Positions 1-61,730 of a stretch of 64,000 nt of DNA are shown piece after piece. The notes beneath the pieces are model-generated. The model saw only the letters and a program-made list of their open reading frames with translations. It made no database searches and had not been told where the DNA came from. Positions within the stretch are counted from its first letter, which is position 1, and each line of letters opens with the position of its first letter. The position numbers and the translations under genes are program-made. This DNA comes from Ptychodera flava (lineage: Eukaryota; Hemichordata; Enteropneusta; Ptychoderidae), in NCBI RefSeq assembly GCF_041260155.1, contig NW_027248373.1, positions 434,001 through 498,000 on the forward strand, given 5' to 3'.

Positions 1-1430
1 GTGGGGAAGAGGCAGATGCCCGACATGCTGTTTTATCGGATAATATCCGATAAAATCGATAATATCGTCTAAAATCTAAGTTAGAGTCTAGTATTAGACG
101 GGGAAGAGGCAGATGCCAGACATGCTCTTTTATTGGATAATACAGTGGCCACTTCACTACCTGTCTAATATTAGACTCTAACTTAGAATTTAGACGATAT
201 TATCGATTTTATCGGATATTATCCGATAAAACAGCATGTCAGGCATCAGCCATACCTCACTCGTCTAATGATAGACACTAACATCTAAGTTAGAGTCTAA
301 TATTAGACGAGTAGGGAAGAGTCAGATGCCCGATATGCTGTTTTATTCGGATAATATCCGATAAAATCGATAATATCGTCTAAAATCTAAGTTAGAGTCT
401 AATATTAGACGAGAGAGGAAGAGGCAGATGCCCGACATGCTGTTTATCGGATAATATCCGATAAAATCGATAATATCGTCTAAAATCTAAGTTAGAGTCT
501 AGTACTAGACGGGGAAGAGGCAGATGCCAGACATGCTCTTTTATTGGATAATACAGTGGCCACTTCACTACCTGTCTAATATTAGACTCTAACTTAGAAT
601 TTAGACGATATTATCGATTTTATCGGATATTATCCGATAAAACAGCATGTCAGGCATCAGCCATACCTCACTCGTCTAATATTAGACACTAACATCTAAG
701 TTAGAGTCTAATATTAGACGAGTGGGGATGAGGCAGATGCCCGATATGCTGTTTTATCGGATAATATCCGATAAAATCGATAATATCGTCTAAAATCTAA
801 GTTAGAGTCTAATATTAGATGAGTGGGGAAGAGGCAGATGCCTGACATGCTGTTTTATCGGATAATATCCGATAAAATCGATAACATCGTCTAAAATCTA
901 AGTTAGAGTCTAATATTAGACAAGTGGGGAAGAGGCAGATGCCCGACATGCTGTTTTATCGGATAATATCCGATAAAATCGATAATATCGTCTAAAATCT
1001 AAGTTAGAGTCTAATATTAGACGAGTAGGGAAGAGGCAGATGCCCGACATGCTGTTTTATCGGATAATATCCGATAAAATCGATAATATCGTCTAAAATC
1101 TAAGTTAGAGTCTAATATTAGACGAATGGGGAAGAGGCAGATGCCCGACATGCTGTTTTATCGGATAATATCCGATAAAATCGATAATATCGTCTAAAAT
1201 CTAAGTTAGAGTCTAATATTAGACGAGTGGGGAAGAGGCAGATGCCCGACATGCTGTTTTATCGGATAATATCCGATAAAATCGATAATATCGTCTAAAA
1301 TCTTAGTTAGAGTCTAGTATTAGACGAGTGGGCAAGAGGCAGATGCCTGACATGCTGTTTTATCGGATAATATCCGATAAAATCGATAATATCGTCTAAC
1401 TTCTAAGTTAGAGTCTAATATTAGAAGCAG
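1..1430. repeat. 101-bp satellite array (about 14 units) inside element A
   Basis: The motif AAGAGGCAGATGCC recurs at 1031, 1132 and 1233, giving a period of 101 bp. Each unit contains strong short palindromes: TTTTATCGGAT / ATCCGATAAAA with a 3-base loop, GTCTAATATTAGAC (a perfect 14-mer) and CGAT/ATCG. At about 140-270 and 545-670 single variant units run in the opposite orientation to their neighbours and carry the extra text TGGCCACTTCACTACC. Confidence 0.9.
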
Positions 1431-1588
1431 ATGGGTGGAAAATTCTAAAAACGCTGTTTTATCGGATAAAATCGATAATATTATCCCTATTAGATCACTT
1501 TGGTCTCATGTTCCTGGAACTCTCTAACTTAGAAATTTTAGACGATATTATCCGATAATAAAGAAAAAGCCTATGTCGCGCCTTCATG
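1..1588 (-). mobile_element. Element A: satellite-carrying non-autonomous DNA transposon, left part cut by window edge
   Basis: On the minus strand the element begins with CATGAAGGCGCGACATAGGC (its end on the plus strand is at 1588) and then matches the first several hundred bases of element C (19334 onward) almost base for base, including the non-repeated lead-in at 1430-1588. It is therefore the same subfamily as C in opposite orientation. The other end lies outside the window, so its target duplication cannot be tested; the visible flank is CGCTGTAT at 1589-1596. No coding capacity is seen. Everything from 1 to about 1430 is the 101-bp array. Confidence 0.75.
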
Positions 1589-3700: not shown

Positions 3701-6458
3701 CATGAAGGCGCGACTTTGCATAATTTTTAAATATCGGATATTTACAATCTAGTATCGAAGTTTGACATATCGACGTTTTCGGGACTAGTATCGATACTAG
3801 ACGATACTAGAATGAAATGCCGTCGTTCCATGGGAAGCCGTTGGGGACTCTAATATCGATACTAGACGATACTATGATGACTAGCCTTGTACCTCGGCAC
3901 ACCGGATCTGTGAAATCTCCGATATTTACCCGATATTTATCGGCGATTTGGGGACTCTAATATCGATACTAGACGATACTAGAATGACTTGCCTCGTGCC
4001 CCGGCACGCCGGATCTGTGCAATCTCCGATATTTACCCGATATTTATCGGCGATTTGGGGACTCTAATATCGATACTAGACGATACTAGAATACTTGCCT
4101 TGTACCTCGGCACGCCGGATCTGTGAAATCTCCGATATTTACCCGATATTTATCGGCGATTTGGGGACTCTAATATCAATATATCAATATATTTGAGTCT
4201 GTTAAATCCCAAGTAAATATCCGATATATATCGGAGATTTCACAACCTCACCGTTCAGGCCAAGCCCGACTTCCGAGGACTGGCTCTAGCATCGATCGAT
4301 ACTAGACGATACTAGAGTCTGTCAAATCGCAAGTAAATATCCGATATATATCGGAGATTTCACAACCTCACCGTTCTGGCGAAGCCCGACTTCCAAGGAC
4401 TGGCTCTAGCATCGATACTAGACGATACTAGAGTCTGTCAAATCGCAAGTAAATATCCGATATATATCGGAGATTTCACAACCTCACCGTTCTGGCCAAG
4501 CCCGACTTCCATGGACTGACTCTGGCATCGATACTAGACGATACTAGAGTCTGTCAAATCGCAAGTAAATATCCGATATATATCGGAGATTTCACAACCT
4601 CAGAGTTCTGGCCAAGACCGACTTCCATGGACTGACTCTAGCATCGATACTAGACGATACTAGAGTCTGTCAAATCGCAAGTAAATATCCGATATATATC
4701 GGAGATTTCACAACCTCACCGTTCTGGCCAAGCCCGACTTCCAGGGACTGACTCTAGCATCGATACTAGACGATACTAGAGTCTGTCAAATCGCAAGTAA
4801 ATATCCGATATATATCGGAGATTTCACAACCTCACCGTTCTGGCCAAGCCCGACTTCCAAGGACTGACTATAGCATCGATACTAGACGATACTAGAGTCC
4901 GTCAAATCGCAAGTAAATATCCGATATATATCGGAGATTTCACAACCTCACCGTTCTGGCCAAGCCCGACTTCCAGGGACTGACTCTAGCATCGATACTA
5001 GACGATACTAGAGTCTGTCAAATCGCAAGTAAATATCCGATATATATCGGAGATTTCACAACCTCACCGTTCTGGCCAAGCCCGACTTCCAAGGACTGAC
5101 TCTAGCATCGATACTAGACGATACTAGAGTCCGTCAAATCGCAAGTAAATATCCGATATATATCGGAGATTTCACAACCTCACCGTTCTGGCCAAGCCCG
5201 ACTTCCATGGACTGACTCTGGCATCGATACTAGACGATACTAGAGTCTGTCAAATCGCAAGTAAATATCCGATATATATCGGAGATTTCACAACCTCAGA
5301 GTTCTGGCCAAGACCGACTTCCATGGACTGACTCTAGCATCGATACTAGACGATACTAGAGTATGTCAAATCGCAAGTAAATATCCGATATATATCGGAG
5401 ATTTCACACCTCACCGTTCTGGCCAAGCCCGACTTCCAGGGACTGACTCTAGCATCGATACTAGACGATACTAGAGTCTGTCAAATCGCAAGTAAATATC
5501 CGATATATATCGGAGATTTCACAACCTCACCGTTCTGGCCAAGCCCGACTTCCAAGGACTGACTATAGCATCGATACTAGACGATACTAGAGTCCGTCAA
5601 ATCGCAAGTAAATATCCGATATATATCGGAGATTTCACAACCTCACCGTTCTGGCCAAGCCCGACTTCCAGGGACTGACTCTAGCATCGATACTAGACGA
5701 TACTAGAGTCTGTCAAATCGCAAGTAAATATCCGATATATATCGGAGATTTCACAACCTCACCGTTCTGGCCAAGCCCGACTTCCAAGGACTGACTATAG
5801 CATCGATACTAGACGATACTAGAGTCCGTCAAATCGCAAGTAAATATCCGATATATATCGGAGATTTCACAACCTCACCGTTCTGGCCAAGCCCGACTTC
5901 CAGGGACTGACTCTAGCATCGATACTAGACAATACTAGAGTCCGTCAAATCGCAAGTAAATATCCGATATATATCGGAGATTTCACAACCTCACCGTTCT
6001 GGCCAAGCCCGACTTCCAGGGACTGACTCTAGCATCGATACTAGACGATACTATAGTCTGTCAAATCGCAAGTAAATATCCGATATATATCGGAGATTTC
6101 ACAACGTCACCGTTCTGGCCAAGCCCGACTTCCAGGGACTGACTCTAGCAACGATACTAGACGATACTAGAGTCTGTCAAATCGCAAGTAAATATCCGAT
6201 ATATATCGGAGATTTCACAACCTCAGAGTTCTGGCCAAGCCCGACTTCCAAGGACTGACTCTAGCATCGATACTAGACGATACTAGAGTCTGTCAAATCG
6301 CAAGTAAATATCCGATATATATCGGAGATTTCACAACCTCACCGTTCTAGCCAAGTAAAGATTTCACCACCCCATCGTTCAATCTAAGTTCGATATTGTA
6401 GAATCTAGTAGCCGTAAATATCGGATATCATATAAAAGTGCAATGTCGCGGTGTCCTC
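3701..6458 (+). mobile_element. Element B: satellite-carrying non-autonomous DNA transposon
   Basis: Starts CATGAAGGCGCGACTTTGCA and ends TGCAATGTCGCGGTGTCCTC. Read inward, the ends align as a degenerate inverted repeat (CGCGACWTTGCA shared, then TATCGGATATTTAC / TATCCGATATTTAC). It has the same outer ends as element C but a different internal satellite. No matching 8-bp direct repeat is seen at the flanks (ACAAATTT left, GGCAAATG right), so either it is old or its right end abuts element D after rearrangement. It has no coding capacity. Confidence 0.7.
3785..6345. repeat. 107-bp (about 4 units) then 116-bp (about 18-19 units) satellite arrays inside element B
   Basis: GGGACTCTAATATCGATACT recurs at 3951, 4058 and 4164 (about 107 bp). 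From about 4190 the unit changes to 116 bp, measured from CCAGGGACTGACTC at 4741 to the next copy at 4857. The 116-bp unit carries the perfect palindrome CCGATATATATCGG and the word ATCGATACTAGACGATACTAG. Variants such as CAGAGTTCTGG recur at intervals, which suggests blocks of units were duplicated together. Confidence 0.9.
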
Positions 6459-6468
6459 GGCAAATGGC

Positions 6469-7190
6469 CATCAAGGTCAAAATATAATGTAGACGGTACT
6501 TTGCAAAGTGTTTAAATATCGGACATTTACTTTCTAATATCGAAGTTTGACGTCCGATGTATTTCCGCCATACATAACAATCTGTATATCGGGCCTAATA
6601 TCGGATATACTAGACGACACAAGAATGACTTGCTCTCTGTCACCGCACACCGGGTTTGAGAAATTGCGATATTTTACCTCCGGCTGATACATATCGATGA
6701 TTTCGGGACCCTTTATGGTAAACATACTAGGCAATTCTGGAATGACTTGCCTTGCGTCTCGACACGCCGGATCTGTGAAATAACAGATATTTACTCGATA
6801 TTTATCGGCGATTGGCGATATCGTCACTAGAATGACTCGCCTCGTGTCTCCGGCACGTCTGGTATGTGTAAAATCACCGATGTTCATCGGCGATTTCGGG
6901 ACTAATGTCCGATATATATGTTGGACATTTACTACCGTAACGCCAAGGATCTTGCCAAGCCCAACTTCATCATTTCTGCTCTAACTTCGAGCCAAGCCCG
7001 ACTTCTTTAGTCCGACTCTAACTTAAGTTATACGATACTAGACTTGTCTAAAACGGTGGGTAAATATCCAATATCGGAATTCCACCGTCGAGGGGCCATG
7101 ATATGACCAAAAATTCTAATTTCGATACTGTGTTGTCCAGTGGTTGTAAATATCCAATATCATACAAAAGCGCAATGTTGAAGTGTCCTC
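6469..7190 (+). mobile_element. Element D: decayed relative of element B
   Basis: Begins CATCAAGG, then TACTTTGCAAAGTGTTTAAATATCGGACATTTAC, and ends CAATGTTGAAGTGTCCTC. Both ends resemble those of element B, and the interior contains worn pieces of B's units (GGCACGCCGGATCTGTG, ATTTATCGGCGATT, CAAGCCCGACTTC). It is much more diverged than B and sits about 10 bases downstream of it in the same orientation. Confidence 0.6.
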
Positions 7191-8459
7191 GAAATCCAGT
7201 TCTCCTCTACACATACAACCACGGTCCCTCCCGAGGGACCGTGATACAACACGGTCGATATGCTAAACTATTACTCTTTTATGACCACGACGAGATCTTA
7301 ATCCCAACACATGCTTTTACAAACGGGGAGCACATTCAATAACGCAGAAAACATAGGTAAGATCTTTCGCTTTGATGCAGTACCGATCCGTCTGTTCACT
7401 TTTATTTGCTAATTTCCCGTTATGCAAATCTTTTGAAACGATATATTCTTATCTTTGAATAATTTTGTCAGGTATTTAGCTTAGCAAAACATTCTGGTAA
7501 ACTTCGGTACACAGAGAAAGTTACTGGCCCGCGTCTTTAGGAACAGCAGGACATCTTTCGAAAGTTACTGGTCCGGCATAAAAACTGCTAGTCTCGGGTC
7601 ATCGGCAGGTGTGAATTTCACACGCTGGGGACATGCAATTAAGTAAAAAATCATGTATTGTTTTTCACTGCGGACTCAGAGTGAGGCGAGGTCAAAACTG
7701 ACGGCGATTTTCGGTCCACGATGCTAACTTTCGCTAATATCTGTAATATCGATCACCGACAAGAATACATCCAATCTCGCATTGGGAACGACCATTATTA
7801 CACATGTACCTCAGTTTACTTTCACTGATTTGACTGTGACAACCGTTGGTTGTTTGATAGAATGTGATCGATGAGCACCTTCGTCCGATTACGGAGTCTG
7901 TCTGGAAACTGTGACAGTGAGTGTATCTGACATCAACTACCTTGTGCTACAGGCATCTATTAGCACCGGAGAACAGGCCAAAAAGTGGAAGAATAGGGAT
8001 GCGTCTATATGATTTTATTTCTGGATGGGTGCAACTTTCATCGTTTATCGTACTGAATCAGACCGTATTACTTTGTGTGACTTCGTCTAATTCAATTTTA
8101 ATGTTACTCATATATGTTTCCAAATTCAATACTCAAAGATGGCCAGATCAGAAACATTCATAAACCTGAATACAAAAAATTTCCTACATCACAAGGACTA
8201 AGTAGGCATTGTGTGATTTTTACCTCTTTTGAGTATATCTTGTCATACACGCCGTGCAAACAATAGTTACCTTTCATTGAACATTCTACAATTTCATCAT
8301 GCTCAACTTTAGGGCTATTTTGGTAAAACTGATAATTTTGAGGTCACTGGACAGGTGCATGGTTTAGGAGGATACAGCGACATATCACAGCACTTTAGGT
8401 ATTTTCGGATATTGTTCTCTAATTCACAAATTATTGTTAGGAAAACTGAGAAGTGGTGG
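7191..8459. other. No gene seen
   Basis: No coding region, array or element boundary recognised. ACTGGYCC motifs at 7512-7600 resemble those near 3.1 kb and in the hAT remnant; a few short open stretches (about 80 codons) have no recognisable features. Confidence 0.5.
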
Positions 8460-8790
8460 GTTTCTGACATTAGTCTAGTGCAGTCATCGAATAAAGTCGC
8501 AAATATCGGCTAAGTTAGAGTTATAGAGTTTATAGCTATTACAGGTTGGGGAAGTGGCCGATGCCACACGCGCAGTTTTATCCTATATCATCGGATAAAG
8601 TCGACAATAACATTGTCTTCTAAGGTTGAGACTAATATCAGAAGGATTGGAATGTGGTCGAAAATAACGTGCAGTTGTACAGCATATCTCGCTAACATCG
8701 TCTATCTTCCAAATGAGAGTCTAATAGAAGACAGGTTGGGAAGTCACCGACACCACCCTTGTGGCCAACTGTTGTTGACCGACACTGGCC
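8460..8790. repeat. Worn units of the 101-bp satellite family
   Basis: The words CTAAGTTAGAG, GGTTGGGGAAGTGGCCGATGCC, ATCATCGGATAAAGTCGA and GAGTCTAATAGAAGAC occur in the order and spacing of the 101-bp unit of elements A and C, but with many substitutions. About three units remain, so this is an old relic of the same family. Confidence 0.6.
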
Positions 8791-11040: not shown

Positions 11041-14028
11041 TCACAAATACATTTTAACTGCACGTGGAATGACACACATTATTTTCTCTCTATTAATGGT
11101 GTCAAAACCTGCGATAAACTTCCCTTGAATTTTTTGAAGTGGAATGAATGATGCTGGCCCAGACATTTCATATGCATCCTTACACCAAACCTCCACTGGT
11201 TCACCATAATAGTTGACATTGTGATGCTGTTGAAACCATCGCACCTTTGCTGATATAAATAATTCCTGTTTGCTATTCACATACAAATACTGAGAGAAAA
11301 AGTACTCGATAACACCCGGTCTTAGTAATCCATTGTGATGATCAATTTTGCCACCCAGTGTACACCAGCGAGCCAGAATTAATGAGGATCTTTTGTATCG
11401 TGAGTCTTCAGATCCCAGTAAATCTTGTCCCACTTTCACAGCAGCACATTTCTTAATATAACCAGTCAGTGTGTCAAGAGCAGACTCTACAAGAAAAGTG
11501 CTGTACATGTTTTTGAGATTAGTTGTCCATGATGCATCCAGGAATTCCATACAAATAGGACCCACCATATGAAATAAGTGCATTGTTTTTAATGCAAGTG
11601 ACAAATTAAACTCCTCAATTCCTAGTGACAATCTACCTAATATTGATACTGATTCATCATCAGTTTGTGCCTGTGATGGTGAAGATACATTCTGTTGACA
11701 ACTCAGAGGGAAAAATGAATTGAATTCCTGGTAGTCATTTGGTTTAGGCATGCTGTGAAGTAATTGTTCATTTATAAATTTCCGCATTATCTGTATTTCT
11801 ACTGATCTGTGATTGGCACAATAATCAGAAAGTATACCATTGTATCTTTCATATGGGAAGGTCCAAAACGAATACACAGGTCCATAATCTAGAATACAGT
11901 CAACTAAATGCGTGTGATAGTGCATATTTGGAGTCACTTTTTCAGAGCCATAAATCTTCTCAAACTGGCGACAAAATTGCATTAGATATGAATGACCTTT
12001 AGCTACATTAGCTATAGTTACCACAGGAGCACACAGCATATGACAGGCCAGTACAAAAAGGCGCCACATTTCCATCTCTTTCCCTGGTAAAATTCCTTTC
12101 AATGAAAACACTGAAAACAGAATAATCCAATGTTTCCACTGGTCTGCAGTGAAACCACCAAAACTTGTTGCTATTTTTAATGGCATTCTGCCCATATTTG
12201 ATGGTGCCCTGGTAATGTCAATTTTTTGTTGGATGGTTTCAAGTTGATCTTTAGAAATCTTTGGTTTGTCTTTGTCTAGCCAGATATTTTTCATAATGTG
12301 TTTGCCTGTACCCAGAAATAAATTGTGAAGTGGGTCAATGACATGAAATCTTACACAATCAAAGTATGCAAGTCTCATTAAAGATGTATACCGTGCCCCA
12401 TATTTTGATACTAATGAATTCCTATCTTTCTTAGACATTTGTTGATCAGTCTCTTCAGCCTGTTTCCGATGATCAGAATTGTTTCGCTTTTTTGCAGGTT
12501 CAAAACCCCCATAATCAATTTTCTCACCAAAGTTGTTACACACAAAGTCTTTCTCACATTTAGAACAGCCCCTTTTAGCTGTATGTCCCACAAACCCACA
12601 GAGTTTTCTTGTTGCTGGTACATCAGATACTACATTAATTAAAGCAGCATGGAATTTACAAACTGCTTTTTTGCCAGATTCTATAATGGAACACGTTAAA
12701 CCTTCATCCCATAACAATTTCATTTCTTCAACTAAAGGGTTGAGAAAAGAATTAACATTCAGTGAAGGCTCCCGAGGACCTGGTATCAACCCGACAAGGA
12801 TTACATTTTCCTTCTTGTACCGTTCAACACGTGGCAAGTTAAGAATTACCATGTACAGTGCTCCTACACTATACGGAAGATGTTTGAATGGGCAAAACCA
12901 ATCTAAATTCAACTGAAATGCATAATTTTGTGGAAAGTTTAAGAAAGACCGGCCATTTACAGTTTGGAACTCTCGCCAAATTCTGCCATCATAAATATCT
13001 GACAGGACACCGGGCGTTGGTCTCCTGTCACGCCATAGTTCACACTTTTCTACAAAACCTTCACGTTTGACCAGATCTGATAAAGACTGTAGCACAGATT
13101 TGTAACAATAAACTTTAAATGGGTATAAACGCTTCTTGTTTCCCTGTAGTTCTACTTCTTTGAGTAAAGGTGCTCCACACGGTTGCCTGAATTTTTTTGT
13201 TTATGTGCAGGAAACTCAATAAATTTACATTTGACAGGCACATTTTTATTACCCACTCGCTTGTAACAATCATTGAACTTATATACTGAACAACATTTTG
13301 GGCAAACAACATATTTGATAAACCTGTCTTCATGTAGACCCATGGATTTTTTCAGTTTGTATAAACTTACAGGCAAAAGAATAGAAAAGGCAGAAATGCA
13401 TGGGAATATTGCTCCTAAAACATGAAACAATGTCTTGAAAAAACCAAGTATCACATCATACATGCATCTGTCACATTGTGAAAATACCACAGGTAGGAAA
13501 GGAAAAGACAAAACAAATTGGCTAATGTCAATAACCTTGGATCATGTGACTCTGCTGCAGACACTGATACAAAAAGATCTGAGGAGTTTAAGTGTTCCTT
13601 GAAATCCTCATTTATATCGTCCTCGTCTACAGTGTCCCAAATCTCACAATGCCCACTCACAAAATCTCTTTCCTCGTCTGTACCAGGTTCACAGAAGTAC
13701 ACACGGTCTTCCTCCTCTAATCCTTTATAAAATTTTGGAGTAATTCTTCTCCATGTTGAATGTTCTCGTGAATTCCTTCAATGTCCATGTTCTCTTCACT
13801 TGTGAGTCCATGCTGATCATCAGTAAAACTGACAGAGTCAACATCATTGCCAGACAATATCTTAAAACGTTTATCACTGAACAGTAATTCTTCTTCTTCT
13901 CGGTCAATGTCATCAAGTGTGGTCCAGGTGTCAGAGATTTCATTATAGTATCGCTTGCGGTGCTGCTTGTAGACTTTTACTATCACCTCATTATCACAGT
14001 GTGGACAATGTTTCCTCTTTGAAGCCAT
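11041..14028 (-). pseudogene. CACTA/EnSpm-type transposase, frameshifted
   Basis: The largest open part (684 codons, 13095 down to 11041) has the hallmarks of the Transposase_21 family of CACTA elements: GLIPGPREPSLNVNSFLNP, then CKFHAALINVVSDVPATRKL, then the cysteine cluster CGFVGHTAKRGCSKC, and HVIDPLHNLFLGTGKH further on. The N-terminal part begins at 14028 with MASKRKHCPHCDNEVIVKVYKQH, a probable zinc-binding motif, followed by an acidic stretch. A second cysteine ribbon (VVCPKCCSVYKFNDCY) lies near 13280. Between 13100 and 13730 reading continues in three different frames, consistent with about three small indels (one in an A-run) rather than introns, as no convincing splice sites are seen. 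Family role: cut-and-paste transposition in the nucleus. Probably inactive, but recent enough to leave a 684-codon open frame. Confidence 0.88.
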
Positions 14029-14982: not shown

Positions 14983-16990
14983 CAGGGCCTGAAATTTCCC
15001 TTTTTTTCACTGGTCCCAAGGTAAAATCCACTGGTCCACAAACTTTGCATAACATACACAAATGATTCAGTTCTCTTACTCATTTTAAATTTGCTTTTAT
15101 TTCAGTGAGGTTTGCTTGGGATGCACATACAGAGACATGTTGCATACATGTATACATTTACTTGGCAGATTTCACAAGTTCTTGTTCAGTAGTTTCTGTC
15201 TTACGAGTACCCGAGAGTTTGTGTCCTTCAATATGTCTACCTATTTCAGGGGTAATGAGCCACCTCACAGCATAAAAAATTACTCACAATTCTCTTTGAT
15301 TTGTATCCTTGAAGGTTACTTTTCTAAAAACTTTTTCAGTTCTGCATGTAAGCACTAATGTACAGCATCAGAATATTTTTAACAATATCTAATAAAAGTA
15401 TGTTTAGATATTTCAGTGAAAAATTCAAAATAACCACTAAACAACCATAAAAGTAACATTCTGTAGGTACTACAAATGCCGTGCTTTTTGGGCAGCAAGT
15501 TATGACGAACTGAAGGGGTCGTTCTCTGAGAAAACTTAGCATGCAAATTTCTTTTGTCTATTCCATTGCAAAAAATCAATATCCTTTTGTTTCATAAAAC
15601 AGGTGTAACTAGTCTCCTTACTTTCCACCACATTATTCTGTATGGCTGAGGACACAATCTGTGGCAAATTTCACAAAAATGCCATCTCCTCTCTCAATTA
15701 TGCATAATTTTCCAAATTATTTAAAATGAGAATTGAGAAGAAAAGTGTGAATAAAAGTACGTTTTCAAAATTATGATAAATAGTCTGTGAATTTGTCTAC
15801 ACATGGAGGACTTCACTCAGGGATCTCTGAGGAAACAAATCATAATGAATTATGGGAAATCTACAGTACAGTGACACATTGCTATGGCAGGATCTGGATC
15901 AAATCTTTGAAGGGTTGGCCCTTCTGACATAATAAACAGCTGATCTTGAAATTTTGAGTCATAGATGTGCGTTTTAATATTGTTCACCTTTGAAAAGCCT
16001 CTTTCGCATGCACTTGTGCTGGGTGACATTGTGAACAAATAATCTAACAACTTGACCATGCCTTCACCAACAACATGAACTGACTGCAATACTAATGAAT
16101 ACACACTCAGCAGAGAGTTAGCTCTAAAGTTCCTACAATAGATTTTTACTGCTAGCCAATCACTGCAAACTGACTCTCTCTTTGCATCAGAGAAATAGTT
16201 GAAACAGGAGTTTCCTACATTAGTTTGTGCATTTCAACATTACCATATTCATATAATTCCTCACCTAAAACCCATTTATGAATTTTAAGATTTTGCATTT
16301 CTTTGAGTGGTTACTGGCTCATGATATCAAATCTATCATTAATATATCTTATTGTATTATTTATGAGATTGACGTAGACTTCATCAACAGTGTATTCTGG
16401 CATCAATGCTTTGCCAGAGATCTCCAAACTCCAAATTTACGATCATCAACACTATAAACTTCAAGAAAATATTTAAGATTTTTGCCAGGAACAGATTTTA
16501 GTGCATTTAGTTTCACAACAGTTTGTTCAAGTCTGTCTGGAATTTCAACAATCAACAGGTCTTCTAATTGAAAGGCTCTTGACAAATCAGAAACAATGGG
16601 TAAATAATCTAACAAGAAGTACAACATCTTGATAAACTTTACAGATTTCAGACTCCTCAAGTAACCCTTAGCATGGTTTGCATTATCGGGAGACCTCCAG
16701 AAGCATTACTTCTACTAGTACTATTCGCTGATCACAGCATCTCACATGATGTAGTAAGCACTAGAGGGAAACGTTCCCGCCTCTGTTTCCAAGTGATGGT
16801 GATTTAGCTTTTTAGCATAACAAGCTGCTTCAGTGAAACATTTGACCCCGACATCAGGAAAATCCCCAAAACGAAATTTAATTGGCTCCCATTCCTACTG
16901 GTCTGCGGACTTTTGTGGGGTGATTTTATACTGGTCTGCGAAAAAAATCACTGGTCCAGGACCTCAGACCAGCATAATTTTCATGCCCTG
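14983..16990 (-). mobile_element. hAT-type DNA transposon remnant (about 2.0 kb)
   Basis: The left end CAGGGCCTGAAATT and right end AATTTTCATGCCCTG form an imperfect inverted repeat of the hAT type (CAGGG start). The 5-bp direct repeat ACTAC flanks it at 14978-14982 and 16991-16995. Most hAT elements make 8-bp duplications, so a 5-bp one needs explaining (a clade with shorter duplications, or erosion). Subterminal ACTGGTCC/ACTGGTCT motifs cluster at both ends. Transposase fragments lie inside on the minus strand. Confidence 0.7.
15850..16660 (-). pseudogene. hAT transposase fragments, C-terminal part
   Basis: The downstream fragment (16104-15850) reads LDYLFTMSPSTSACERGFSK followed by VNNIKTHIYDSKF, the signature of the hAT C-terminal dimerisation domain (ERGFS-x-xN-x-IK) just after the catalytic region. 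The upstream fragment (16660-16403) reads FLLDYLPIVSDLSRAFQLED and resembles the alpha-helical insertion region of hAT transposases of the ZNF862-like, TTF-finger type. Stops and frame changes separate the fragments, and the N-terminal BED/TTF finger is not found. Inactive. Confidence 0.75.
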
Positions 16991-17350
16991 ACTACGGATG
17001 CAGACTTATGCTTTAAGCTCAGATTGGTACACCAAATGCAGGCTAAATTCAGCATATTTTATTTGACATACAGGTTCTTCCAGTGTCCCTGTCATACTGC
17101 AATGTTTCTGTTTGGCTGGCCACACAACTGCTTGATAACTTTATAAAATTTCAATTTCCCTCTATCAGTAACGCATTATTTTCAAAATCATCTGGACTGA
17201 TATTGACAATAATTGTCTACTTCAAAGTATGCTTTCAAAATTTTATGTTGTCTACAATTTTCTCTACACATGTGAGCTATGCTAGGCTTGACTGGGGAAT
17301 ATCTATTGCTAAAGATCAAAATGAATCATGGGATATTATCTTGTAATTCC

Positions 17351-18275
17351 ATAGCCTACAAGCAGTGGACAAGCCAATAAACAATTGTTTGTCCAGTGCA
17401 TGTGTCTATACACCTGACAAGATAAGGGACAAGCAGTGGACAAGCCAATGAACAGTGTATTGTTTCATGTTTACAGACTGACAACATGAACTGGCTGCTG
17501 TGATCAAAGGTGAGAATGGGTGAACACCTTGCTCAGTTTCAAGTTTTCAAACAAACCAGAAGGATGGGCAAATCAACAAGACCCTTCCACACTAGCTACA
17601 TTCTAACACTAACATTTTGGTATATTGTCAGGAAAATTCGAATTATTCTCTGAAACAGTCACCAGGTGAACCTGCACAGAACAATTTACCATTTACAGTT
17701 TAACAAAGTCTGGTCTGTGTGAACATTATGTGAACAGCCTAGGGAAGGATGCACAAGAGCCATACAAAGGGCCTTATCCAAGAAATGTCAAATTATGATT
17801 GGGACACACCAGACATTAAAAATGACATGACAGTCTGGGAAAAAAATTATGAAGAACACATAATTCTTTGCAAATAGCGTATATATATTGTCTTGTACCC
17901 AATTAAAATTGTCATCTGAAGAATATTTTTTGTTTTGTCAATACTTGATTATTCTGGCTTGGCTATGGCATGATGTATATACTAGTACACAGACCTAAGA
18001 AACCATGGTGGTAGCAACATTACTTCCTCGCTAAAATTAAACAGGAAGGATCTTGCAACTTACCGTATTCAGAATTCAAGTATCAGTCAACAATTACAAT
18101 AACTGATGAAGATTGCTATTTCAAACTGGCATGTAGCGACCTACAGGGAAAAATATAGGGAAAGCCTAAGTTTTTGCTTGGTTAGTCATGACTTGTGTCA
18201 TGACAGTGTGGTAGTATGTCCTTTCCCAAAAAATGTCTCTTATGACAAGGTTTTAGCTTGGTTAATGTCCATGGT
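17351..18275. repeat. Duplicated block, copy 1
   Basis: Shares ATAGCCTACAAGC..., the stretch from CACCTGACAAGATAAGGG to GGTGAGAATGGGTGAACACC, and GACATGACAGTCTGGG through ATGAAGATTGCTATTTC with 22141-22970. The copies differ in the middle (about 17640-17830 against 22412-22535), where unrelated or rearranged text replaces the shared sequence. No open frame spans it. Confidence 0.85.
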
Positions 18276-19325: not shown

Positions 19326-19333
19326 ACTTCAGC

Positions 19334-21915
19334 CATGAAGGCGCGACATAGGCTTTTTCTTTATTATCGGATAATATCGTCTAAAATTTCTAAGTTAGAG
19401 AGTTCCAGAAACATGAGACCAAAGCGATCTAATAGGGATAATATTATCGATTTTATCCGATAAAACAGCGTTTTTAGAATTTTCCACCCATCTGCTTCTA
19501 ATATTAGACTCTAACTTAGAAGTTAGACGATATTATCGATTTATCGGATATTATCCGATAAAACAGCATGTCGGGCATCTGCCTCTTCCCCACTCGTCTA
19601 ATATTAGACTCTAACTTAGATTTTAGACGATATTATCGATTTTATCGGATATTATCCGATAAAACAGCATGTCGGGCATCTGCCTCTTCCCCACTCGTCT
19701 AATACTAGACTCTAACTAAAATTTTAGACGATATTATCGATTTTATCGGATATTATCCGATAAAACAGCATGTCGGGCATCTGCCTCTTCCCCACTCGTC
19801 TAATATTAGACTCTAACTTAGATTTTAGACGATATTATCGATTTTATCGGATATTATCCGATAAAACAGCATGTCGGGCATCTGCCTCTTCCCCACTCGT
19901 CTAATATTAGACTCTGACTTAGATTTTAGACGATATTATCGATTTTATCGGATATTATCCGATAAAACAGCATTTCGGGCATCTGCCTCTTCCCCACTCG
20001 TCTAATATTAGACTCTAACTTAGATTTTAGACGATATTATCGATTTTATCGGATATTATCCGATAAAACAGCATTTCGGGCATCTGCCTCTTCCCCACTC
20101 GTCTAATATTAGACTCTAACTTAGATTTTAGACAATATTATCGATTTTATTGGATATTATCCGATAAAACAGCATATCGGGCATCTACCTCTTCCCCACT
20201 CGTCTAATATTAGACTCTAATTAGATGTTAGTGTCTATCATTAGACGAGTGAGGTATGGCTGATGCCTGACATGCTGTTTTATCGGATAATATCCGATAA
20301 AATCGATAATATCGTCTAAATTCTAAGTTAGAGTCTAATATTAGACAGGTAGTGAAGTGGCCACTATATTATCCAATAAAAGAGCATGTCTGGCATCTGC
20401 CTCTTCCCCGTCTAATACTAGACTCTAACTTAGATTTTAGACGATATTATCGATTTTATCGGATATTATCCGATAAAACAGCATGTCGGGCATCTGCCTC
20501 TTCCCCACTCGTCTAATATTAGACTCTAACTTAGATTTTAGACGATATTATCGATTTTATCGGATATTATCCGATAAAACAGCATTTCGGGCATCTGCCT
20601 CTTCCCTACTCGTCTAATATTAGACTCTAACTTAGATTTTAGACGATATTATCGATTTTATCGGATATTATCCGATAAAACAGCATGTCAGGCATCTGCC
20701 TCTTCCCCACTCGTCTAATATTAGACTCTAACTTAGATTTTAGACGATATTATCGATTTTATCGGATATTATCCGATAAAACAGCATATCGGGCATCTGC
20801 CTCTTCCCCACTCGTCTAATATTAGACTCTAACTTAGATGTTAGTGTCTAATATTAGACGAGTGAGGTATGGCTGATGCCTGACATGCTGTTTTATCGGA
20901 TAATATCCGATAAAATCGATAATATCGTCTAAAATCTAAGTTAGAGTCTAATATTAGACAGGTAGTGAAGTGGCCACTATATTATCCAATAAAAGAGCAT
21001 GTCTGGCATCTGCCTCTTCCCCGTCTAATACTAGACTCTAACTTAGATTTTAGACGATATTATCGATTTTATCGGATATTATCCGATAAAACAGCATTTC
21101 GGGCATCTGCCTCTTCCCCACTCGTCTAATATTAGACTCTAACTTAGATTTTAGACGATATTATCGATTTTATCGGATATTATCCGATAAAACAGCATGT
21201 CGGCATCTGCCCTTTCCCCACTCGTCTAATATTAGACACTTACTTACATTTTAGACGATATTATCGATTTTATCGGATATTATCCGATAAACAGCATGTC
21301 GGGCATCTGCCTCTTCCCCACTCGTCTAATATTAGACTCTAACTTAGATGTTAGTGTCTATCATTAGACGAGTGAGGTATGGCTGATGCCTGACATGCTG
21401 TTTTATCGGATTATATCCGATAAAATCGATAATATCGTCTAAAATCTAAGTTAGAGTCTAATATTAGACAGGTACGCAGTGAAGTGGCCACTATATTATC
21501 CAATTAAAGAGCATGTCTGGCATCTGCCTCTTCCCCGTCTAATACTAGACTCTAACTTAGATTTTAGACGATATTATCGATTTTATCGGATATTATCCAA
21601 TAAAAGAGCATGTCTGGCATCTGCCTCTTCCCCGTCTAATACTAGACTCTAACTTAGATTTTAGACGATATTATCGATTTTATCGGATATTATTCGATAA
21701 AACAGCATGTCGGGCATCTGCCTCTTCCCCACTCGTCTAATATTAGACTCTAACTTAGATGTTAGACGATATTATCGATTTTAATCGGATATTATCCGAT
21801 AAAACAGCATGTCGGGCATCAGCCACTTCCCCATTCCTCTAAATTAGACTCTAACTTAGATAACTTAGATAATATTATCCGATAATGCCTATAGTGCCAA
21901 TGTCGCGGTATCCTC
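19334..21915 (+). mobile_element. Element C: complete satellite-carrying non-autonomous DNA transposon with 8-bp target duplication
   Basis: Starts CATGAAGGCGCGACATAGGC and ends GCCAATGTCGCGGTATCCTC. The reverse complement of the end (GAGGATACCGCGACATTGGC) matches the start at 14 of 20 positions, including CGCGACAT. The 8-bp sequence ACTTCAGC lies immediately outside both ends (19326-19333 and 21916-21923), a perfect target-site duplication that fixes the limits at 2582 bp. Apart from lead-in and tail segments, the interior is the 101-bp array. No coding sequence is present, so it must be moved by an enzyme encoded elsewhere. An 8-bp duplication is made by hAT, P, Merlin, Zisupton and some Mutator-like families; the ends do not decide which. 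Confidence 0.88.
19380..21880. repeat. 101-bp satellite array (about 24 units) inside element C
   Basis: Reverse-complement orientation relative to the array in element A. At least three times (about 20222-20400, 20838-21010 and 21345-21530) a variant block runs opposite to its neighbours and introduces GAGGTATGGCTGATGCC and GTAGTGAAGTGGCCAC, giving a higher-order repeat. Units outside these blocks are very similar to one another. Confidence 0.9.
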
Positions 21916-22140
21916 ACTTCAGCTGGCAAAGTCAAGACTCTTCCGCTACAACCATGTGCTTTGGCTTGGACCTGGCCCTATGTTTCATGTAACCTCACAT
22001 TTAGCAGTTTGTTAGACAATTATAACAACTCTGAATGCCACCAGATTATCAAGCTAAACGATCATACTTAGAGCTAGTTTCTTCAGGAAATCTGAAAGTT
22101 GCATGAAATGGTCTACTTCCTGTACATATTTGACCATTCT

Positions 22141-22970
22141 ATAGCCTACAAGCCAATGAACAATGCATTGTTTGTCCAGTGCATGTGGTCTTTACACCTG
22201 ACAAGATAAGGGACAAGCAGTGGACAAGCCAATAAACAGTGTATTGTTTCATGTTTACAGACTGACAACATGAACTGGCTGCTGTGATCAAAGGTGAGAA
22301 TGGGTGAACACCTTGCTCAGTTTCAGGTTTTCAAACAAACCAGAAGGATGGGCAAATCAACAAGACCCTTCCACACTAGCTACATTCTAACACTAACATT
22401 TTGGTAGATTCTCAAGACAAAATTCGAATAGTTTGAAGATTTCAAAATATTTTTCGATATTCAACAATTGTGAAATATAAGTGGGACAGAATAGACATTA
22501 AAAATACATGATCAATTGTGTTGACATGACAGTCTGGGAAAAAAATTATGAAGAACACATAATTCTTTGCAAATAGCGTATATATTGTCTTGTACCCAAT
22601 TAAAATTGTCATCTGAAGAATATTTTTTGTTTTGTCAATACTTGATTATTCTGGCTTGGCTATGGCATGATGTATATACTAGTATACAGACCTAAGAAAC
22701 CATGGTGGTAGCAACATTACTTCCTCGCTAAAATTAAACAGGAAGGATCTTGCAACTTACCGTATTCAGAATTCAAGTATCAGTCAACAATTACAATAAC
22801 TGATGAAGATTGCTATTTCAAACTGGCATGTAGGAGCGACCTACAGGGAAAAACATAGGGAAAGCCTTAGTATTTGCTTTGTTAGTCATGACTTGTGTCA
22901 TAACAGTGGTACTAGGATCATGCCATTTCCCAAAACCTTAAACCTATGACTAAATCGCTTGAATGTTCAT
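22141..22970. repeat. Duplicated block, copy 2
   Basis: Partner of 17351-18275, same orientation, about 4.8 kb downstream. It lies outside element C, so the direct duplication and the element insertion are separate events. Similarity fades around 22920-22970. Confidence 0.85.
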
Positions 22971-23425: not shown

Positions 23426-23558
23426 GGGGTCATTCACGGTTCCGTGTGTTTCGATACATATTGGCCGGCCGCCGCGTGGTATGCATAGAAAAGTCGGCAT
23501 GCATATCACGCGGCGGCCGATACGTATCGAAACAACACGGAACCGTAGGGTCATTTGG
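23426..23558. repeat. Foldback element with GC-rich stem
   Basis: The left arm TTCACGGTTCCGTGTGTTTC...CCGCGTGGTATGCAT pairs with the right arm ATGCATATCACGCGGCGGCC...CACGGAACCGTA, leaving a loop of about 12 bases. A shorter relative with the same GCGGCCGCCGCGTGGTATGC core is at 53990-54063. Confidence 0.8.
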
Positions 23559-24315: not shown

Positions 24316-27300
24316 ATGTCTACGCCAAGCACCGAAAATCAAACAGAAGTAACTCCGCAGTCCAGTTTGACTGAGTCATCATCCATTCTTGGTCTCATCC
24401 GGCCAAGACGAGAACTTCTACTGGGTGGAGAGGACGTGGGTCCGGGCACTGACGCCGCAAGACCGTCTACTAGTACTACTGAAGAAGTTACTATCAGCAG
24501 AGAAGAGTTTCAGCGCCTCCTCAAGAACCAAGAAGAAATGCTAAAAAAGCAGCAGTTACTCGAGGAAAAGCTGGCAGAAGAGTCTCGGGCTAGGCGAAAA
24601 ATAAGGCCATCGAGAAAACTTAAGGTATGGACAAGTTAAATTTAGGCAATATTTTGACAAATCGAGGACGTAGGCCCTGTATCCAGGGAGATGTTGGCCA
24701 GTGCTAGTGTATGCGAGCGGCAGCTCGCCAGTGCTCGCAATACAGACGTGATCATAGGGGAAAGAAATCAGTCCCCTGGGGTGGGGAGGGAGTTTTTTGT
24801 GCAACGGTTTACCTCATTTGATTTTATTAATTTTGGCTGATATTTCAAATAAAGTTCAAGTCCAAACCGTCTGACTACCTTCTTTTTACTACAAGTATAT
24901 TTTATTATTTTGACTATCGTATTTCAAATACAGATTTCGACTCCACACCGTCTGACTGCTTTATATATTACCGACAAGTCCTTATCTCCTCTCCAACTTG
25001 TGTATACGCCTCTGTAATGCTCAGAAAACATTGCCAACTTGCTAATCCGCTGTCGGTATCAGCGGATTAAGTGATTGAGTCAACACCACAGCCGTCTCAC
25101 ACACATTACGTGTGGACGGCCGTGGTGTTGACTTAAATAAGCTAATCCGCTGATACGCTCAGTCATTAACAAGTTGGCAATGTTTGCGCAGCAATTAGAG
25201 TGGTATGTGCACTGGTTGAAGAGGAGATAAGGAATTGGAAACACAGTCAGACAGTTTGGAGTCGAAAGCTTTATTTGAAATCTCACAGTCAAAATTAATA
25301 AAATCAAATATTAAAGGTGAACCGTTGCACAAAGAAAACCTCCTCCCAACCCCAGGGGACTTTCATCTGCCCCTGTGACGTGATGTTGAAGTATGTTCCC
25401 ACGCAACGTCGATAATATGTACGTAAAGACGTTGTGTCGTATCACGCCTGTGTTGCGAACAGCATCGGCAAGGCACAGGCGCAGTACGAATTTTTTAAAA
25501 GTCACTTTTCTGTCCAGGCCACTGATGCTGTTGTGGGTTCGAACCTGATTGAAAACTAGCCGTATTTAATGTTGAAACATGCGTTTTATTGAGATTGAAC
25601 GTGCAAATGAAATCGTTCGGATTGCCTATGTGACACACAGCCAATAGCGCACAGTGCACGGCTTTGGCCGCTTAGGTCTACTGTTACGTTTTCACTCGGC
25701 GAATTTTACAGCGTTGTAAAATCACTTGCCTGCATTTAATGTTGAAATATGCATTTTAATTTTTTATTGATAACTGTACTGTAAACGGAAATCATACGGT
25801 AGCATTTGATAGTACATACAGTGATCAGGACCCATAGCTGGGCCGCCGAAATGCCGCTCCGCTGTCTTGCGCACATTGTTTAATCTATGTGCAAGAGTGT
25901 ATCTATTACATTTAATAGGCCTACATTAACAACGAATTGTGCGAAGAATATCTTATGCTCCAAAATGACTACGGAATTTCGGTAATAGTTTTTTTTTGTT
26001 ACCTCACAACAGAGAACCTGTGAACACTGGTTAACATGTTGATTGTATATTTCTTATTCTTTTTCAGAGTGCTATTCATTCCATTTATGATGGACTTATC
26101 GACGCAGACGCTGGTAAAAAGTGGGATACGACCAAACCGTAAGTATACATTTTTACTTATATTTTTTTTTTGCTCTAATGACAATAGAGACGAATACTAA
26201 ACGATTTCAACTACAACTTAAAAACGCAAATGATGAAGGAAGATACTAAAATAGTATCTGGAAAGAATATAATGAATATACAAATTTTACTTTCTTGTGT
26301 TTAATAATAAATTATGTAACTGAGAGCTCTTTGATGAGATAGTTTTCAATATATCAAACATTTTTCAATCTAGCTGTATGTACCGCAAAAGCAGCAAGCA
26401 TAATAAATCAGTAAGAATTTCAAACCTGTGTCATGTACCTCCGGGATAAACATTCCAAACCTTCTATGCTATCATTTTTATTTTCACGGTTCACTTTAAT
26501 TTGTGATGCTTAGCTTAGTTCATTCTGGTTAACTGTTATCTTCCAGATTTGGCCATGCACACAATGTGCAGATAAACAAGGAAATCAAGACAGCTGTCCA
26601 AGGGCAGATGACAGAAGATGACTCTGTTATTCATGGTGAGTTTCATTGATGTAGTGCACGCTTGCATTATTTCCTTTTCTTACCAACAGTTTGTGCTGAT
26701 GGTTTGACTAACGACAATCACACACTTTTTTGATCGGTTGGTGCTTTCTTCTCTTTCACTTAATGATTATAATTTGTCCCTACCTTGAAAGTAATTATCT
26801 CCTTTCTCTTCTTTATTACAGTTGCAACGAAAACTTATTTTATGACGAAACGGCGCGAAAGCAAACGGCAGCAAAAGGGAACTGTGGCATCGTTTAAGAA
26901 AAAACAAGCCCGCAGACAAAGAAACAACAGGTAATTTGTGTACATGCAGGTGGCAAAAACCTGTTATTAAAGGTTCTACTCAAGCTAAGATTTGTTTGAC
27001 AATACCCCAAAAACATATACTGCTGAAAACGCTAAATATGTGATATCGACCATGTTTATTTTGTTTTCATTGATTATATTTGTAAACATTGACATCAGAT
27101 AATAAGACTGCACAGTTTCTTTATTCTGCAAAATATCTTTTGCTTCTTACTTGTTCAGTCGAGTCACACGTGGCTAAATTGAAAAAATATAGCTTAACGT
27201 CCCATAATCTCTAGGGCCATTGTTTGACAAGTAATACCCATGTCTATGTGTGACCATATAAGGAATGCATTGAATTCGTATTGTAAAGATATAATGATTC

Positions 27301-28013: not shown

Positions 28014-29430
28014 AATTGATGAAAACTACCTGCTTTAGAGGGGGAGCTGTATGTGTTGCTTTATTTCACATTTGTCCTGGCCGAATTTCAGCGGCTTATG
28101 GCCACCTTTGCCCATATTTCCCTCCTGGGGTGTAATTGATGAAAATTACCTGCTTTAGAGGGGGAGCTGTATGTGTTGCTTTATTTCACATTTGTCCCGG
28201 CCGAATTTCAGCGCCTTATGGCCACCTTTGCCCATATTTCCCTCCTGGGGTGTAATTGATGAAAATTACCTGCTTTAGAGGGGAGCTGTATGTGTTGCTT
28301 TATTTCACATTTGTCCCGGCCGAATTTCAGCGGCTTATGGCCACCTTTGCCCATATTTCCCTCCTGGGGTGTAATTGATGAAAATTACCTGCTTTAGAGG
28401 GGGAGCTGTATGTGTTGCTTTATTTCACATTTGTCCCGGCTGAATTTCAGCGGCTTATGGCCACCTTTGCCCAAATTTCCCTCCTGGGGTGTAATTGATG
28501 AAAATTACCTGCTTTAGAGGGGGAGCTGTATGTGTTGCTTTATTTCACATTTGTCCCGGCCGAATTTCAGCGGCTTATGGCCACCTTTGCCCATATTTCC
28601 GTTCTTTGGTGTAATTGATGAAAACTACCTGCTTTAGACGGGGCGCTGTATGTGTTGCTTTATTTCACATGTGTCCCGGCCGAATTTCAGTGGCTTATGG
28701 CCACCTTTGCCCATATTTCCCTCCTGGGGTGTAATTGATGAAAACTACCTGCTTTAGACGGGGCGCTGTATGTGTTGCTTTATTTCACATGTGTCCCGGC
28801 CGAATTTCAGCGGCTTATGGCCACCTTTGCCCATATTTCCCTCCTGGGGTGTAATTGATGAAAACTACCTGCTTTAGAGGGGGTGCTGTATGTGTTGCTT
28901 TATTTCACATTTGTCCCGGCCGAATTTCAGCGGCTTATGGCCACCTTTGCCCATATTTCCCTCCTGGGGTGTAATTGATGAAAACTACCTGCTTTAGAGG
29001 GGCGCTGTATGTGTTGCTTTATTTCACATTTGTCCCGGCCGAATTTTAGCGGCTTATGGCCACCTTTGCCCATATTTCCCTCCTGGGGTGTAATTGATGA
29101 AAACTACCTGCTTTAGAGGGGGTGCTGTATGTGTTGCTTTATTTCACATTTGTCCCGGCCGAATTTCAGCGGCTTATGGCCACCTTTGCCCATATTTCCC
29201 TCCTGGGGTGTAATTGATGAAAATTACCTGCTTTAGAGGGGGAGCTGTATGTGTTGCTTTATTTCACATGTGTCCCGGCCGAATTTCAGCGGCTTATGGC
29301 CACCTTTGCCCATATTTCCGTTCTTTGGTGTAATTGATGAAAACTACCTGCTTTAGACGGGGCGCTGTATGCGTAGCTTTATTTCACGTTTGTGCGGGCG
29401 TAATATCAGCCGTATATGGTCACCTTGCCC
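28014..29430. repeat. 120-bp tandem array, about 12 units, between genes 1 and 2
   Basis: The unit runs from AATTGATGAAAAYTACCTGC through GTATGTGTTGCTTTATTTC and CCCGGCCGAATTTCAG to CATATTTCCCTCCTGGGG. The period is 119-120 bp, e.g. GAAAATTACCTGC at 28141 and 28261. Variant pairs (GACGGGGCGC, CCGTTCTTTGG) recur, showing block duplication. The last unit is worn. There is no open frame through the array. Confidence 0.95.
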
Positions 29431-32500: not shown

Positions 32501-34415
32501 TCGGAGAAAATGCCAGGTAAGTATTTAATTAGAATCAGTATATTATACCACATATGGCTTCATAAAGATAAGTGAAATAATTTTTCTGGAACAATAACTT
32601 AATGCTACATACATCATGTGTTGGAAGAATTTTTATTGATTCATCATCATGAATTTTTTGCATATGAGGTGTTTTGAAAAATCTAGTCATTGAGAACAAG
32701 TCATCGTTGATGACACAGTCCCCACTTGTAATGGGTACTTTGATTACAGGTCGTCAGAGAGGATAGAGTCCTCTTCATTAGGTCTGTGATAAAAATACTT
32801 TTGAATAAATTCGCTTGATACATGTCTGAGCTGTAGTTCAGGACATGAAAGAATCGTAATAAAATGGCCACATGGCGGCCTAATTGGATCGTATCACAGA
32901 ACAAATCTATGTGCATATGTATGACAGACATCCAGCTCTATGGGTTTGCTCAGAATTAGATATATGCATAATTAATGAGGTACAGTATGAAGCATCATAA
33001 GGTCTCCATATATGAAGGGTGTAGCACTTGTGGTTACTGAGTTATGGACAAATATGTATATTTGAGGTCAAAGGTCACCGAGGTCACATGACATTTTGTC
33101 AAAAAAATTGTAGTGCTAAGTTATCCCTATATACCAAAAATCAGACCTCTAGCTCTATTGGCTCGCTCAAAATTAGACATGCGCATAATTGATGAGGTAC
33201 AATATGTGGCGTCATAAGGTGTCCCGTCATACCATATATGAAGGGTGTACCACTTGTGGTTCCTGAGTTATGGACAAATATGTATATTTGAGGTCAAAGG
33301 TCACCAAGGTCACGTGACATTTTGTCAAAAAATTGTAGTGTTAAGTTATCCCTATATACCGAAAATCAGACCTCCAGCTCTATTTGCTTGCTCAAAATTA
33401 GATATGCACATAAATGAGGTACAATATGTGGCGTCATAAGGTGTCCCATCATACCAAATATGAAGGGTGTAGCACTTATTGTTACTGAGTTATGCACAAA
33501 TATGTATATTTGAGGTCAAAGGTCACCGAGGTCACGTGACATTTTGTCAAAAAAATTTTATTGCTAAGTTATCCATATATACAAAAAATCAGACCTCTAG
33601 CTCTATTGGCTCACTCAAAATTAGATATGCACATAATTAATGAGGTACAATATGTGGTGTCATAGGGTGTCCCATCATACCATATATGAAAGGTTTAGGA
33701 CTTGTGGTTACTGAGTTATGGACAAATATGTATATTCGAGGTCAAAGGTCACCAAGGTCACGTGACATTTTGTCAAAGTTTCTGAGATATCTGCGTGAAC
33801 GGATGGACTCATGGATGGACTCACGGACGGACATGACCCAATCTAAAAGCCCCCTTGACTTTATCTTTGGGGACTAAAAACTGTGTAACTGCATCTTTTT
33901 GCAATATGAATACGATGAGAAACTAAATTTTTATTTTTCTTGGCCTTATACATGGGAGTCTATGGACTGCCTTATACATGGGAGTCTATGGACTGCCTTA
34001 TACATGGGAGTCTATGGACTGCCTTATACATGGGAGTCTATGGACTGCCTTATACATGGGAGTCTATGGACAGCCTTATACATGGGAGTCTATGGACTGC
34101 CTTATACATGGGAGTCTATGGACTGCCTTATACATGGGAGTCTATGGACTTCCTTATACATGGGAGTCTATGGACTGCCTTATACATGGGAGTCTATGGA
34201 CTGCCTTATACATGGAAGTCTATGGACTGCCTTATACATGGGAGTCTATGGAGGTGAAAACTAAAAAGTCCTCTAACACGGCCAATTTTATCGCATTGTG
34301 AAACAAATCGATGTGCATCTGTATGAGGTAGGGTACTATCCTTGTACCAAGTTTGAACGAAATCGCTCCAGGCGTCTCTGAGATATCTGCGTGAACGGAC
34401 GGACGCACGGACGGA

Positions 34416-59699: not shown

Positions 59700-59990
59700 C
59701 TACACCGTTTTCCCTTGTATTACATCAATAACAACACCTGGTATAGGAGTTAAGGCTAACAGTACCGGAACTGTCGGAATTGCTGCTATTACAGCAGAGC
59801 TTACAAGAATTCCCTTAGTCACATTAAGAGCCATATCAATTCGTCCCATTAATTTATAACTTCGTCGATATGCAGCACTTGTTCTTTCTATGTAATCAGC
59901 CAATTGTTCAACGCTTTCAACAACTGAGATGTGCATTTTTACTGTATATGTAAGGATGATAAAAATAATTGTAGTAATATAGAAATACAA
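59700..59990 (-). CDS. Small membrane protein of the Polinton-like element, role unknown
   Basis: 96 codons. A hydrophobic N-terminus (FYITTIIFIILTYTVKM), a helical middle (ESVEQLADYIERTSAAYRRS) and a long hydrophobic C-terminal part (ILVSSAVIAAIPTVPVLLAL, then TPIPGVVIDVI) suggest two to three membrane-associated segments. It is divergent from the next gene; their starts are almost back to back at 59990/59992. Small membrane proteins of unknown role are common in these elements. Confidence 0.45.
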   Translation of the reverse strand: MYFYITTIIFIILTYTVKMHISVVESVEQLADYIERTSAAYRRSYKLMGRIDMALNVTKGILVSSAVIAAIPTVPVLLALTPIPGVVIDVIQGKTV

Positions 59991-59991
59991 T

Positions 59992-61266: not shown

Positions 61267-61283
61267 CACCCCTACGGCATCGA

Positions 61284-61571
61284 CATGTTTGGTGAAAAGA
61301 ATATTGCAAAGTTTCTTTCTAAAAATAAAGACCTGTTTGGTTTCTCCGTCGAATTGGAATGGTGCAAACTTCGGCGGTAAATCGACATATACTTCGAGCA
61401 AATCCAGGTGTCCGACTCAAAGATGATAATCTATATCATAACATTTTAGCTTTCGTGAAGGAATGTCAAAAGACTAACTTCTTTAAGCGACTAGAATTCA
61501 TAGCTGTATTCCAGGATACTGAGGATGACCAGGAGGCTCATCATCTCCAAGAATATTGGGTTCTTCGATGA
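61284..61571 (+). other. Short unassigned coding-like stretch in the Polinton-like element (fossil)
   Basis: Contains FGEKNIAKFLSKNKDLFG and NILAFVKECQKTNFFKRLEF. No family recognised. It lies in the gap between the acidic protein and the capsid region. Broken. Confidence 0.3.
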
Positions 61572-61730
61572 TTCGCGACACAGGTAATCGATTTATCTTT
61601 CAGTCAGACGGAAATATTTATGTAAAGATGTGATTTTTTTTCTAAGTCATTATATACACAAAGTGAAACTTAATTTTCTTTATAACATGTAATTTCTTTT
61701 TTTTCTTCTACTATATACATTACACGAAAA

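Follow-up and report, generated by a model that had tools for sequence, protein, structure and literature searches.

A transposon that is mostly tandem array, with units probably derived from its own terminal repeat

We analysed a stretch of 64,000 nucleotides of DNA (hereafter the window) and found that one element, C, shares its ends with other elements of the window, is enclosed by one 8-bp duplication, consists mostly of a 101-bp tandem array whose unit resembles its left end, and carries an array that is also present in a second copy, A. We think it probable that C is a non-autonomous Foldback-type DNA transposon whose array multiplied from its own terminal repeat and whose transposase is supplied from elsewhere. 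The features on which this reading is built are listed in Table 1.

Table 1. Element C, its parts and its relatives in the window
Feature	Positions	Strand	Remarks
Element A	1..1588	-	C subfamily; cut by window edge; left end at 1588
Element B	3701..6458	+	second subfamily, same outer ends; without 8-bp duplication
B left arm	3778..4160		107-bp units
B right arm	4195..6355		inverted 116-bp units
Element B2	6486..7190	+	short diverged B-type copy; without 8-bp duplication
Element D	8368..8744 (end approximate)	-	decayed C relative; right end at 8368; diverged 101-bp units
Left copy of 8-bp direct repeat ACTTCAGC (target duplication)	19326..19333	.
Element C	19334-21915		2582 bases; perfect 8-bp direct repeats ACTTCAGC on both sides
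Left terminal repeat of C	19334..19400	+	67 nt; outer 14 nt common to A and B
101-bp tandem array of C	19497..21861	+	TRF, 23.2 copies, 78% matches
First inverted unit within C array	20246..20345	-	element positions 913-1012
Second inverted unit within C array	20859..20958	-	element positions 1526-1625
Third inverted unit within C array	21369..21468	-	element positions 2036-2135
Right terminal repeat of C	21849..21915	-	67 nt; imperfect inverted match to left one
Right copy of 8-bp direct repeat ACTTCAGC	21916..21923	.

Limits and structure of element C

A perfect 8-bp duplication, ACTTCAGC, lies exactly outside both ends of C, where an earlier note on this DNA had placed it. The limits of C are independent of this duplication because they recur in other copies within the window. 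The left 14 nt of C, CATGAAGGCGCGAC, have three exact occurrences in the window (1575-1588 on the minus strand, 3701-3714 and from 19334), and the right 14 nt, GTCGCGGTATCCTC, have three at no more than one mismatch (6445-6458, 8368-8381 on the minus strand and from 21902). When two positions were drawn at random, their 8-mers were identical in 93 of 3,000,000 draws outside arrays and in 6.15e-5 of 2,000,000 draws from the whole window. Since such identity is rare in random pairs, a match at the fixed limits of C is unlikely to be due to chance.

Outside these limits, we saw no convincing likeness between the flanks of A, B and C. Comparison of their 300-bp flanks (n = 5; 10 pairs, both strands) gave 0 of 20 results above the largest of 200 dinucleotide shuffles. 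The lowest comparison was between the left flanks of A and B, for which 9 of 200 shuffles were as good; with 50 plain shuffles this pair, the sole one of its kind, scored one point above the largest shuffle. C also lies, together with about 1.3 kb of single-copy DNA, between the two copies of a longer direct repeat (17346-18231 and 22136-22935; 730 identities, 31 mismatches and 164 gap positions). This direct repeat may be a local duplication; a reading of the segment as long terminal repeats was set aside by eye.

The expectation in the earlier note that other copies would show a consistent 8-bp duplication did not hold. Both ends are visible in C, B and B2 (the right end of A lies beyond the window, and no left end was recognised for D within it), and two of these three elements, B and B2, lack a duplication, their flanking 8 bases matching at 3/8 positions in each case. 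The 8-bp figure therefore comes from a single copy, C, and the reading in the earlier note, which had named copies lacking a consistent duplication as a refutation, is weakened. A search for duplications of 4-12 bp around B, and around the left end of B combined with the right end of B2, allowing 3 bases of slack, yielded at best the 5-bp CAAAT around B, which is displaced by 2 bases at each end. Age may account for the missing duplication in B2, and arm exchange with another copy would explain its absence from B despite the intact ends.

Most of C is repeat. TRF placed 2365 of its 2582 bases in the 101-bp array, and piecewise alignment assigned 2459 of 2582 to the 101-bp unit in 29 pieces, of which 25 run forward and 4 are inverted. 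Three of the inverted pieces sit in modules of 208-213 bp that are mutually 96-98% identical, while the fourth is the left end itself, as nt 8-67 of the left terminal repeat align to the unit in inverted orientation. At the other end, the inner 13 nt of the right terminal repeat overlap the TRF array. The two ends of C are clearly alike (0/300 shuffles as good), and the terminal repeats are identical at 46 of 59 positions over nt 9-67 (counted from an ungapped alignment). Their outermost 8 nt agree at 3 of 8 positions, which is unusual for a terminal inverted repeat.

The longest stop-to-stop frame in C is 68 aa. Folded as single-stranded DNA, one 101-bp unit gave a z of -4.24 (0/200 shuffles as good), compared to -2.19 for a 116-bp unit and -0.44 for a 107-bp unit, +0.64 for the left end of C and -0.85 for a stretch outside the element. 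Thus, the hairpin property is marked in the 101-bp unit, weaker in the 116-bp unit and absent from the other sequences folded. On each of these points we agree with the earlier note, which had described imperfect inverted-repeat ends, an interior that is nearly all 101-bp tandem array, a hairpin-rich array and an absence of coding sequence.

Relatives of C and the array shared with A

C has four relatives in the window (A, B, B2 and D); the first 9 kb of the window contain four of the five elements. A agrees with the left module of C at 161 of 163 bases. B belongs to a second subfamily, and its 107- and 116-bp units are inverted relatives of each other (score 78.0, against 36.0 for the largest of 300 shuffles). 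Between the A/C and B subfamilies the outer 14 nt are kept at 14/14 positions on the left and 13/14 on the right, and at the right end of D they are kept at 13/14. Further in, at nt 15-163, B and C are hardly alike (13/300 and 36/300 shuffles as good). The 101- and 116-bp units may be distantly related, with 1/300 shuffles as good; kinship between the 101- and 107-bp units was unsupported, with 50/300.

The ends of B2 scored 46.0 and 42.0 against those of B (largest of 300 shuffles, 22.0 and 22.5); B2 also holds a 148-codon stop-to-stop frame (6534-6980, minus strand), which is composed of repeat sequence. The right end of D resembles that of C, with a score of 35.5 compared to 19.5 for the largest shuffle. 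A candidate duplication for D, a 7/8 match to its flank at 9003, was dropped because no recognisable left end lies beside it.

To compare the arrays of A and C, we used the first seven units of each, those ahead of the first inverted module. Units 1 of A and C have in common two variants that the remaining 12 units in the comparison all lack; two variants are also common to unit 2 of A and unit 3 of C, and one to units 7. Pairing the inverted modules of A with those of C gave 95-99% identity in 6/6 cases. Since A and C share variants and modules while their flanks are unrelated, they hold one common array at two places. Judged by sequence, an existing array, shared by A and C, has moved as a whole. 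The claim that the array travels with the element is thus upheld: the two copies have end modules, inverted modules and variants in common, but not flanks. The number of units would have changed since A and C split, most simply through unequal exchange.

Within the window, the units are confined to the family. All 2408 of 2408 14-mer matches to the 101-bp unit fall inside A or C, and 14-mers of the 116-bp unit match at 1662 places, 1660 in B and 2 in B2. Scans of other collections gave no match for the 101-bp unit core or the left end among viral contigs and none for the 116-bp unit core among prokaryote contigs, both being collections that are unlikely to include the host. The right-end pattern was found in nine viral-contig stretches, which we took as chance: 0/9 contained the left-end 11-mer, and one (L008) contained a single core 8-mer. 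In Rfam, no family was found at threshold.

The window also contains features of other kinds. At 11041-13197 on the minus strand, a 719-codon frame matches Pfam Transposase_21 (E 4.1e-24) and is a transposon gene of another kind; we rejected it as the autonomous partner, as it does not lie between ends of the C family. An open frame at 15850-16233 (minus strand) resembles the end of a hAT transposase by eye, with no Pfam match at E 0.1. Frames at 59983-63889 are Polinton-like by eye (capsid-like and DNA-polymerase-like), and their Pfam matches are below the cut-off (e.g. Capsid_N, E 0.036) or absent. From these kinds of mobile genes, Transposase_21 and the Polinton-like frames, we take the host to be probably an animal. 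Two long imperfect palindromes (23436-23546 and 24899-25304; 80% and 76% self-complementary by blastn) are perhaps other miniature inverted-repeat elements. Further tandem arrays are found at 28014-29430 (120 bp), 32925-33777 (226 bp) and 33943-34252 (26 bp).

Origin of the array

We compared the ends of C and B with the repeat units. For each end we used only sequence that lies beyond the aligned units (left ends of C and B) or beyond the TRF arrays (right ends of C and B), with 1000 shuffles. The left end of C resembled the 101-bp unit, with 0/1000 shuffles as good, and did not fit the B units (85/1000 and 85/1000). For the right end of C, the likeness to the 101-bp unit was weak (22/1000), and again the B units did not fit (409/1000 and 310/1000). 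The left end of B resembled the 116- and 107-bp units (8/1000 and 12/1000) and not the 101-bp unit (221/1000). The right end of B resembled the 116- and 107-bp units as well (4/1000 and 3/1000), although it did better with the 101-bp unit (1/1000) than with B's own. In a wider version of the test that took the outer 100 nt, the right end of C gave 0/200, but 46 nt of that piece lie inside the TRF array; part of the B left piece likewise reaches the first B unit. Because the result for the C right end weakened from 0/200 to 22/1000 shuffles as good once the array was excluded, our confidence is lowered as well.

Ends and units also have a palindromic core, TATCGGATA/TATCCGATA, in common. The core 8-mer ATCGGATA/TATCCGAT occurs at 87 places in the window, one of them in D and the other 86 in A, C or the stretch 3701-7190.

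These comparisons do not support the claim that the satellite is cargo, as the 101-bp unit resembles the left end of C. The array is probably not foreign to the element, and, given the resemblance between unit and left end, an array that grew out of the ends is the more parsimonious view. That the ends came first is our inference; much the same picture would result if an array had extended into them.

On the cargo view of the earlier note, a satellite already present in the genome would have been captured by a short inverted-repeat transposon, which has carried it ever since. The likeness of end and unit would then reflect extension of the array into the terminal repeats, or mutual conversion of the two. 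The Xenopus MITE miDNA4 is proposed to have captured a tandem repeat (recounted in PMC12628747), and the weak likeness of the C right end to the unit outside the array agrees with such a history. Against it, there are two subfamilies with different units, the ends of B also resemble B units, and every one of the 2408 unit 14-mer matches is in A or C, although one window says little on free arrays elsewhere. We regard capture as unlikely, and we hold the same opinion of the accompanying account of the end likeness.

Class of the element and its significance

Foldback elements have inverted-repeat arms made of tandem repeats. B has such arms, in which its 107- and 116-bp units are inverted with respect to each other. 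C has inverted ends and one array with inverted units, and its left arm is only a short terminal piece; taken alone, C is a lopsided Foldback case. A target duplication at the limits is present in C and absent from B and B2. The inverted-repeat arms of TU and FB are also built of tandem repeats, with units much shorter than those of C. The target duplication is 8 bp in TU and 7 bp in Galileo.

Among superfamilies, Mutator has target duplications of about 8-11 bp and a Mutator-type transposase in the autonomous partner, P has duplications of 7-8 bp and a THAP-domain transposase in the autonomous partner, and hAT has 8-bp duplications of the form nTnnnnAn. The length of ACTTCAGC fits hAT, but the nucleotides at positions 2 and 7 of this single site, a C and a G, do not fit the hAT pattern. 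For the comparison with Mutator and P, the 8-bp length comes from one copy. As the earlier note had it, the superfamily is not evident from the ends.

Of the described elements, Tetris of Drosophila virilis (PMC4079207) comes nearest, followed by Galileo. Tetris is a non-autonomous Foldback element with tandem repeats in its terminal inverted repeats. A 37-bp part of the repeat resembles the outer end at ~80%, from which a like origin was argued, and target duplications are 8-9 bp in the three complete copies (PMC4079207). The authors report that no transposase source was found, term the repeats building blocks of a satellite, and cite TU (sea urchin) and FB (Drosophila melanogaster) as foldbacks; they chose Mutator from the duplication length and from earlier suggestions on foldback elements (PMC4079207). 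Tetris, which we liken to C by description only, differs in its units of ~220 bp and its flanking domain of up to 866 bp (PMC4079207), whereas C has ends of 67 nt with unequal outermost 8 nt and is nearly all array.

Galileo, a P-superfamily element of Drosophila, is similar to the present family in its long, internally repetitive inverted repeats, of which only ~40 bp at the extremities are conserved between species (PMC3688188). The same source demonstrates binding of the THAP domain of the transposase to sites within the tandem repeats. Galileo differs in that autonomous remnants with a transposase gene are known (PMC3688188); there is none for the C family within the window. As for the ends of C, no description of them appeared among the literature matches listed, judged by title and the start of the abstract.

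C could instead represent a separate DNA transposon family, though this seems doubtful to us. Its ends differ over the outermost 8 nt, each being kept between subfamilies; the interior would have given way to arrays of palindromic binding sites that co-evolve with the ends, and the transposase would tell left from right and favour multiplication of its own sites, giving rise to new satellites as a by-product.

Helitrons leave no target duplication and have TC...CTRR ends, while C has a perfect 8-bp duplication and ends in CATG...CCTC. We therefore consider it very unlikely that C is a rolling-circle element, a non-autonomous Helentron carrying a satellite inside it like those of oysters. In Crassostrea gigas, satellite-like arrays are reported to be dispersed inside non-autonomous Helentrons (PMC7492417), much as the array is carried in C, and both the unequal outermost ends and the two copies that lack a duplication would suit such an element. 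C, however, combines its duplication with terminal inverted repeats (46/59 over nt 9-67). Most improbable of all is an immobile satellite array that was spread by recombination or segmental duplication and has a chance 8-bp match at its limits: although only 1/3 of the elements with both ends visible has a duplication and the elements cluster at the start of the window, an identical 8-mer at limits that are already fixed is expected by chance about 3 times in 100,000, the end sequences are kept between subfamilies, and the flanks are unrelated.

For a Foldback-type element with an array grown from its own ends, we envisage the following course. A transposase made elsewhere would recognise the conserved outer ends and probably further inner sites, the core TATCGGATA/TATCCGATA being a candidate binding site in both ends and units. 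The element would be moved by cut-and-paste transposition and joined to its target with an 8-bp stagger. The array would have grown by multiplication and divergence of an inner site of the terminal repeat, and unequal exchange would then change how many units it has as it is carried along with the element.

C and its relatives look like another family of Foldback-type elements, a class already known from flies. They make a compact case: in both subfamilies of this window a tandem array is probably traceable to the ends of its own transposon, and one whole array is visible at two places. This fits the view, drawn from Tetris and Galileo, that a satellite can begin as multiplied transposase-binding sites. 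Should the host be something other than a fly, it also suggests that the origin of satellites from transposon ends is not confined to Drosophila.
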